DNA of 64,000 nucleotides from Roseiflexus sp. RS-1 (GTDB lineage Bacteria; Chloroflexota; Chloroflexia; Chloroflexales; Roseiflexaceae). The stretch is from NCBI RefSeq assembly GCF_000016665.1, contig NC_009523.1, positions 310,001-374,000 on the forward strand, written 5' to 3'. Each line of letters opens with the position of its first letter. Position 1 is the first letter of the stretch. The notes under the pieces were generated by a model, which saw nothing but the letters and a program-made list of their open reading frames with translations, was not told the origin of the DNA and did not search any database. Made by a program: the position numbers and the translations under genes. Positions 17,474 through 18,545 of the stretch are shown here, piece by piece.

Positions 17474-17629
17474 TATTCGATATTGTACCGCCGGGTGTCG
17501 TGTCCGACAAGCAGCCTCATTTGACCGCAAATGTTGGTGTTTACGTCTTTTCAAGCAATCCGCTGGCGTGTTACAATATCGATACAAAGTGGTTATTAAG
17601 TGACAGTGCGACCTGGAGGGGAGATGCGT

Positions 17630-17959
17630 ATGAGCAACGAGCAAAACAAGCGTCGTCGGAAGGCGGCATACATCTGGAAGCCAGAGATGATCCGCGCCTT
17701 GCGAGAACATATGGATCTGACCCAGCGCGAACTGGCCGATCTGCTGGAGGTGCGGCAGCAGACCATCAGTGAATGGGAGACAGGACTGCATACGCCGCAT
17801 CGCTCGACTCAGAAAACGCTGAGTATGGTCGCCGAGCGCGCTGGCTTCTCCTATAACGCTCAGGAATCCGTTCCTGCCGATGAGGATGGTGCGCAGCAGA
17901 ATGGCGACGAGACCGCTGAGCGCGCCAACGCTGACCGGCAGACTGCCGGCGACGCTTGA
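17630..17959 (+). CDS. XRE-family helix-turn-helix regulator
   Basis: A 109-residue protein with a Cro/CI-type helix-turn-helix: MIRALREHMDLTQRELADLLEVRQQTISEWETG. A basic N-terminus precedes it and a disordered, acidic tail (ADEDGAQQNGDETAERANAD) follows. GGAGG (17615-17619) serves either the ATG at 17624 or the one at 17630; the second has the better spacing. An extended -10-like TGTTACAAT lies at 17569-17577. It is divergent from the hypothetical gene at 16826-17473. Its stop codon overlaps the -35 box of the next promoter. Confidence 0.82.
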   Translation: MSNEQNKRRRKAAYIWKPEMIRALREHMDLTQRELADLLEVRQQTISEWETGLHTPHRSTQKTLSMVAERAGFSYNAQESVPADEDGAQQNGDETAERANADRQTAGDA

Positions 17960-17984
17960 CATCTACACGTTTTCGTGTTAGACT
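17956..17984 (+). promoter_or_regulatory. Strong sigma-70-type promoter with an operator in its spacer
   Basis: A consensus -35 TTGACA (17956-17961) and a -10 TAGACT (17979-17984) are spaced by exactly 17 bp. The spacer holds a palindrome-like site, ACACGTTTTCGTGT (17965-17978), with 5-bp arms (ACACG/CGTGT). A repressor bound there would block RNA polymerase. Confidence 0.8.
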
Positions 17985-17995
17985 GATACCAGAAC

Positions 17996-18025
17996 GAAGG
18001 ACGCGCACAGGCGTCCTTCTTCTTC
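17996..18025 (+). terminator. Hairpin in the leader: terminator or attenuator
   Basis: GAAGGACGC (17996-18004) and GCGTCCTTC (18011-18019) form a perfect 9-bp stem with a 6-nt loop, followed by TTCTTC. It lies between the promoter and the next gene, so it could end the XRE transcript or attenuate the downstream one. Confidence 0.5.
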
Positions 18026-18034
18026 ACCGGAATT

Positions 18035-18048
18035 ACACGAAAACGTGT
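18035..18048 (+). promoter_or_regulatory. Second operator-like site, inverse of the first
   Basis: ACACGAAAACGTGT is the exact reverse complement of the spacer site at 17965-17978. It lies just before the GGAG ribosome site of the gene at 18060, with 70 bp centre-to-centre between the two sites (seven helical turns at 10 bp per turn, about 6.7 at 10.5). Confidence 0.7.
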
Positions 18049-18059
18049 GGAGTTGTCTC

Positions 18060-18368
18060 ATGCCGCGCCGTTTCACGCTTCCCTGCGACCATCTCCGTGC
18101 CCTGTACGAAGCGGGTGCAACGACCATCACTCTGGCGAACCTGTACCACTGCAATCCGGCCACGATCGCGCGGCATCTGCGGCGCTGCGGCGTTGTGCTC
18201 CGCACCGGGCGCTTCACCGCGAAACCGTGTGATGAAGCGCTGCTCCGTCGGATGTACCTGGACGAGCGGCAACCGTTGACCCAGATCGCAGCCGCGCTCA
18301 ACGTTTCGGTCAGCACCGTCGGGAACTGGCGACGGCGGCTCGGCATCCCGCCGCGCAGGGGGCGGTAG
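18060..18368 (+). CDS. Small double helix-turn-helix protein
   Basis: A 102-residue basic protein. The first half (LRALYEAGATTITLANLYHCNPATIARHLRRCGVVL) and the second half (LRRMYLDERQPLTQIAAALNVSVSTVGNWRRRLGI) each look like a resolvase/MerR-like helix-turn-helix that reads DNA. No catalytic domain follows. GGAG lies 7 nt before the ATG. Its promoter contains an operator repeated inversely next to the ribosome site, which suggests autoregulation (inference); the XRE protein encoded just upstream is the other candidate repressor. Confidence 0.72.
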   Translation: MPRRFTLPCDHLRALYEAGATTITLANLYHCNPATIARHLRRCGVVLRTGRFTAKPCDEALLRRMYLDERQPLTQIAAALNVSVSTVGNWRRRLGIPPRRGR

Positions 18369-18545
18369 GGGCGGTGGCGGGGGGCGCAGTAGGGGCGCAG
18401 CACTGCTGCGACCAGACGGGCAGCAGCGGCGGCGGCGGGGCGCAGCGGCGCTGCACCCGTACAGGGAGGCGGGGCAGCGGCGGCGGGGGGCGCAGCAGCG
18501 CTGCGCCCGCACAGGGAGGCGGGGCGGCTGCAGCAGGGCTGTGAT
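18366..18545. repeat. G-rich palindromic repeat cluster (GGGCGCAGCAGCGCTGCGCCC family)
   Basis: Degenerate copies of GGCGCAGCAGCGCTGCGCCC with GTACAGGGAGGCGGGG linkers. Related copies occur at 25680-25727, 25990-26030, 31283-31345, 50423-50535 and around 61680-61725, so it is a dispersed palindromic family. Confidence 0.7.

Follow-up and report, generated by a model that had tools for sequence, protein, structure and literature searches.

A small XRE-family protein of Roseiflexus sp. RS-1 is probably an autoregulated repressor of a regulon of DNA-repair and DNA-modification genes, with an output switch made of two operators and an intervening hairpin immediately after its own gene. Judging from the placement of its operators, it appears to control its own gene, the adjacent one and various dispersed genes for DNA repair and DNA methylation across the phylum Chloroflexota. 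The sites, the promoters, the hairpin, their conservation and their association with the XRE gene are directly apparent in the sequence and its comparison with other genomes, and the position of the operators suggests that the regulator acts as a repressor. The locus lies in a window (the whole stretch of DNA that was analysed) of 64,000 nucleotides, to which the coordinates in Table 1 refer.

Operators and hairpin at the XRE locus

Table 1. Features of the XRE locus and their positions in the window
Feature	Position	Strand	Remarks
O0 operator ATCCGCTGGCGTGT	17558-17571	+	Adjoins the -10 box TACAAT (17572-17577) of the XRE gene promoter
XRE-family (HTH_3) regulator gene, 109 aa	17630-17959	+	Start ATGAGC
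Promoter P1, TTGACA-17-TAGACT	17956-17984	+	-35 TTGACA, 17956-17961; -10 TAGACT, 17979-17984; 17-bp spacer; conserved in relatives
O1 operator ACACGTTTTCGTGT	17965-17978	+	Within the P1 spacer
Terminator-like hairpin, 9-bp GC stem, 6-nt loop, TTCTTC tail	17996-18025	+	
O2 operator ACACGAAAACGTGT	18035-18048	-	Exact reverse complement of O1; beside the GGAG of the downstream gene
Gene for a 102-aa protein with two helix-turn-helix repeats	18060-18368	+	Presumed P1 target

The initial annotation had described an operator in the P1 spacer, its inverse 70 bp further on and next to the GGAG box, a hairpin with a 9-bp stem between them and genes for DNA-binding proteins on both sides. Re-reading of the sequence bore out the operators and the hairpin exactly, and the flanking genes code for an XRE/HTH_3 protein upstream and a two-HTH protein downstream. 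What had been overlooked are O0, at the promoter of the XRE gene, and the remote operator sites presented below. O0 and O1 have identical placements relative to their respective -10 boxes. The stop codon of the XRE gene falls within the -35 box of P1, and O2 is followed by the GGAG box and then by the ATG of the 102-residue gene. In other genomes, O1 and O2 also show the variant half-site ATCCG.

The operator is a rare sequence. The exact 14-mer of O1 occurs three times in the 5.8-Mb genome, where composition-free arithmetic predicts ~0.04 copies; two copies are at this locus and the third precedes a C5 DNA methyltransferase gene. The pattern A[CT][AC]CGN4CGTGTTA has only three exact matches in the genome, including O0 and O1. 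In the window, the only matches to ACACGN4CGTGT with up to one mismatch are O1 and O2, both perfect; the one-mismatch form is uninformative, since shuffled sequences yield 2.8 such matches. Looser patterns (one to three mismatches) match mostly inside genes, and among the single promoter-like matches are sites before genes for HypC-like, formate-tetrahydrofolate-ligase-like and DUF4058-like proteins. Frequent occurrence in unrelated places, which the initial annotation had named as counting against a switch, was not found: the motif has few occurrences, and these lie in promoters of functionally related genes.

The hairpin GAAGGACGC(GCACAG)GCGTCCTTC (17996-18019) has a predicted folding energy of -17.5 kcal/mol (z = -4.6) and probably begins a few nucleotides into the P1 transcript. 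Two of its properties fit a terminator poorly: a position so close to the expected start is unusual, and the T-run is weak in this genome (TTCTTC), such that a strict terminator scan did not call the hairpin. A search for an alternative antiterminator fold of the leader found none, and an Rfam search of the leader returned only unconvincing sub-threshold matches. In a read-through transcript of the XRE gene, O1 could form a 14-bp duplex with O2; their perfect complementarity is restricted to the genus (it is absent in genome G009). A GC-rich repetitive stretch of GGGGCGCAGC units (18370-18540) separates the 102-residue gene from a DUF4058 gene.

Conservation of the module and identity of the binding protein

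The block composed of two sites and the intervening hairpin is retained in seven genomes, i.e. all six of the genus and one of a sister genus. Among 60 related genomes, which are not independent samples, the pattern TTGACN{2,4}WMYMCGN4CGTGTWA occurs once each in 12, always at this position; its reversed control has no match in the 60, and all of them that carry the strict promoter-operator pattern also have the XRE gene. In one Chloroflexales genus (three loci), the O1-O2 stretch is enlarged to several hundred bp and partly filled by GGGAGGGC..GCCCTCCC repeats. The initial annotation had proposed DNA looping between the sites, and the genus does have identical strong sites ~70 bp apart. However, the distance between them ranges from 69 to 72 bp in the genus and from 67 to >700 bp elsewhere, with no fixed helical phase, which makes a loop bridging O1 and O2 very unlikely.

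The XRE protein belongs to the HTH_3 family (Pfam HTH_3, 8.5e-11, 42.2 bits for a cut-off of 23), and homologues are present across Chloroflexota. Its gene is flanked by that of the two-HTH protein and by a gene without a Pfam match. The protein is predicted to have a disordered tail; the AlphaFold models of the locus proteins are of modest quality (pLDDT of 73 and 79). As is typical of XRE/HTH_3 regulators, there is a palindromic operator at its own promoter (O0). At 80 homologous loci throughout the phylum, an operator was found at most 260 bp upstream of the XRE gene in 55 cases and at most 300 bp downstream in 54, for a background density of 0.012 per 260 bp elsewhere; the upstream site is missing at the matrix cut-off in the other 25. 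These associations, the invariance of the recognition region LEVRQQTISEWE among 21 homologues and the presence of the operator at XRE genes lacking the 102-residue neighbour led us to take the XRE protein as the very likely binder of the operators.

The other candidate is the 102-residue protein, which might bind O1 and O2 and repress its own gene, leaving the XRE protein a bystander. The two sites flank its leader, and some genomes of Oscillochloris and Chloroploca have lost both sites and the gene together. The protein was found in 15 of the 60 relatives, always alongside the XRE protein, which occurs without it in eight genomes; in the genomes searched, it is restricted to Chloroflexales, and no such gene adjoining the XRE gene was found outside that order. 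However, the same operator precedes the XRE gene in genomes devoid of the 102-residue gene, throughout Dehalococcoidia and also in G029 and G059, and a palindromic site fits a dimer of the XRE protein better than two tandem HTHs. In addition, the identity of the 102-residue protein drops to 33% among homologues, in contrast with the invariant recognition region of the XRE protein. We thus consider it very improbable that the 102-residue protein alone is the regulator, and it is probably not a binder. A bistable switch of the CI/Cro type, in which both proteins compete for or co-occupy the operators, is suggested by adjacent genes for DNA-binding proteins that share an operator-bearing spacer. 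It is nevertheless unlikely, given that nothing points to recognition of the site by the 102-residue protein and that the module exists in Dehalococcoidia without it.

The arrangement of operators around the hairpin is also widespread. In 31 of the 80 loci an operator lies 3' of a terminator-like hairpin with a GC stem and a U-run, for a background of 2.7% of random positions; the structure is retained with differing stem sequences in other genomes, as expected of an intrinsic terminator. Thirty of the 80 loci have the full set of O1 with a -35 box, hairpin and O2, and the sequences of their stems are unrelated. In Dehalococcoidia, the order is XRE stop codon, TTGACATTATACACGTAACCGTGTATAAT, hairpin with T-run, TACACGATATCGTGTTA and a DUF2851 gene, and three loci of that class have a macro-domain gene between the promoter and the terminator. 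A contig labelled Candidatus Gracilibacteria bears an XRE-O1-hairpin-O2-HTH module and is probably a misbinned Chloroflexota contig.

One may ask whether the hairpin is simply the terminator of the XRE gene, with P1 giving a short RNA or chance read-through and O2 belonging to a weak promoter of its own. The location of the hairpin between two genes and the macro-domain genes inserted before it would agree with that explanation. However, P1 keeps its -35 and -10 boxes even where only the hairpin comes after it, and inspection of the listed sequences revealed no -35 box before O2; this explanation is rather unlikely. O2 still follows the hairpin at loci with >200 bp between it and the start of the next gene, which indicates that it goes with the terminator and not with the ribosome site. 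For that reason, a roadblock is a plausible role for O2, in preference to a translational one.

In the preferred reading, the XRE protein bound to O0 would cover the spacer next to the -10 box and repress its own gene, and on O1 it would likewise shut P1 and keep the 102-residue gene off. The hairpin in the P1 leader would act as an intrinsic terminator or attenuator, also limiting read-through from the XRE gene; bound to O2, immediately past the hairpin, the XRE protein would block polymerases reading through from either P1 or the XRE gene. Promoter occlusion, terminator and roadblock would together make a tightly closed, autoregulated switch. For the compact switch put forward initially, conservation lends good support to the operator in the promoter, the second operator and the likely attenuator; looping did not hold up, and neither, probably, did binding by the 102-residue protein.

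Remote operators at repair and methyltransferase genes

In this genome, an operator also lies within the promoter (TTGACA-17-TATACT) of a gene for a UvdE-domain protein (PF03851, 7.5e-30; below the stricter cut-off of the NCBIfam uvde equivalog), with a second site just downstream. With a matrix derived exclusively from XRE-type loci, UvsE sites being left out, we found an operator before the gene for the UV endonuclease UvsE in 16 of 18 genomes that have the XRE gene and in none of 12 that lack it (Fisher 1e-6, a value overstated because kinship is ignored). The two exceptions are G043 and G049, in which UvsE has no operator despite the presence of the XRE gene.

Methyltransferase genes form another group of putative targets, located megabases from the XRE locus. 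The operator precedes a C5 methyltransferase gene in this genome and one relative, and an N6/N4 methyltransferase gene is similarly preceded by it. At genome position 5094283 (L155:1500-2279), a TATATT box directly followed by the operator precedes a gene for an N6/N4 DNA methyltransferase; the convergent neighbouring gene, without a Pfam match, could code for a restriction enzyme. A covariance model built from sequence only performed weakly (best E 0.2) but gave one new methyltransferase candidate.

The 14 Dehalococcoidia genomes contain 42 exact promoter-operators, in 13 of the 14, and no match to the reversed pattern. They are located at the XRE locus, at mutL in 10 of the 14 genomes (some mutL genes were identified by eye from the translation rather than by Pfam) and at eight DNA methyltransferase genes. 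The distant promoters that the XRE protein would repress are those of UvsE and DNA methyltransferase genes in the Roseiflexus genome, and those of mutL and methyltransferase genes in Dehalococcoidia. One and the same host operator is found at methyltransferase genes that differ from genome to genome, which suggests that such genes have repeatedly been placed under one host repressor; some of them probably belong to restriction-modification systems.

Other sites were noted. At genome position 1657126, ATCCGATACCGTGTCA is directly upstream of a DUF4351/Transposase_31 gene, with a paralogue at 1532370 that has a similar site; these genes are possible further targets. In a Dehalococcoidia genome (L278:269-1086), an exact promoter-operator precedes a small gene and one coding for a 206-aa protein without a Pfam match.

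Comparison with known regulators

The protein resembles XRE/Cro-family autorepressors such as 434 Cro, P22 c2, MqsA and HipB, i.e. small HTH_3 proteins with ~14-bp palindromic operators on their own promoters. Unlike them, it appears to control chromosomal repair and methylase genes, and no phage, toxin or lysogeny partner is present at the locus. The nearest named NCBIfam match is TIGR03830 (MqsA), at 43.2 bits, below the curated cut-off of 61.8. In contrast with the MqsA/YgiT antitoxin, the protein has no zinc domain and no adjacent MqsR toxin. The operator of MqsA and the motif of the DdrO regulon both differ from the operator described here.

A repressor of dispersed DNA-repair genes whose operators overlap promoters is reminiscent of the LexA SOS regulon. 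However, the XRE protein is not a LexA, as it has neither an S24 peptidase nor a LexA DNA-binding domain and its operator is different; LexA is encoded separately elsewhere in this genome. DdrO of Deinococcus is reported to be an XRE-type, LexA-independent repressor of dispersed DNA-repair genes in the radiation/desiccation regulon (PMC8072749). The XRE protein differs from DdrO, a repressor cleaved by a metallopeptidase partner of the IrrE type, by its predicted disordered tail in place of a known cleavable domain. It shares with the controller (C) proteins of restriction-modification systems its XRE family and operators near methyltransferase genes, and has a weak sequence match to 4yba (Regulatory protein C). 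In contrast to those proteins, it is not encoded within a restriction-modification system and has remote targets, UvsE and mutL among them, which sets it outside that class.

Full-text literature searches, whose coverage leaves out most subscription papers, returned no published description of this regulon. The inducing signal is perhaps DNA damage. As a speculative and rather unlikely extension, a phylum-wide, LexA-independent repressor might couple repair (UvsE, MutL and the macro-domain protein) to DNA methylation, perhaps by sensing damage or methylation of its own CpG-containing operators, with the promoter-terminator-operator cassette as a tight output switch. The regulon of DNA-repair and DNA-modification genes proposed here for Chloroflexota stands beside LexA and is testable, with its regulator, operator and targets specified. 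It comes with a recurrent cassette that stacks a repressed promoter, a terminator and a downstream operator.
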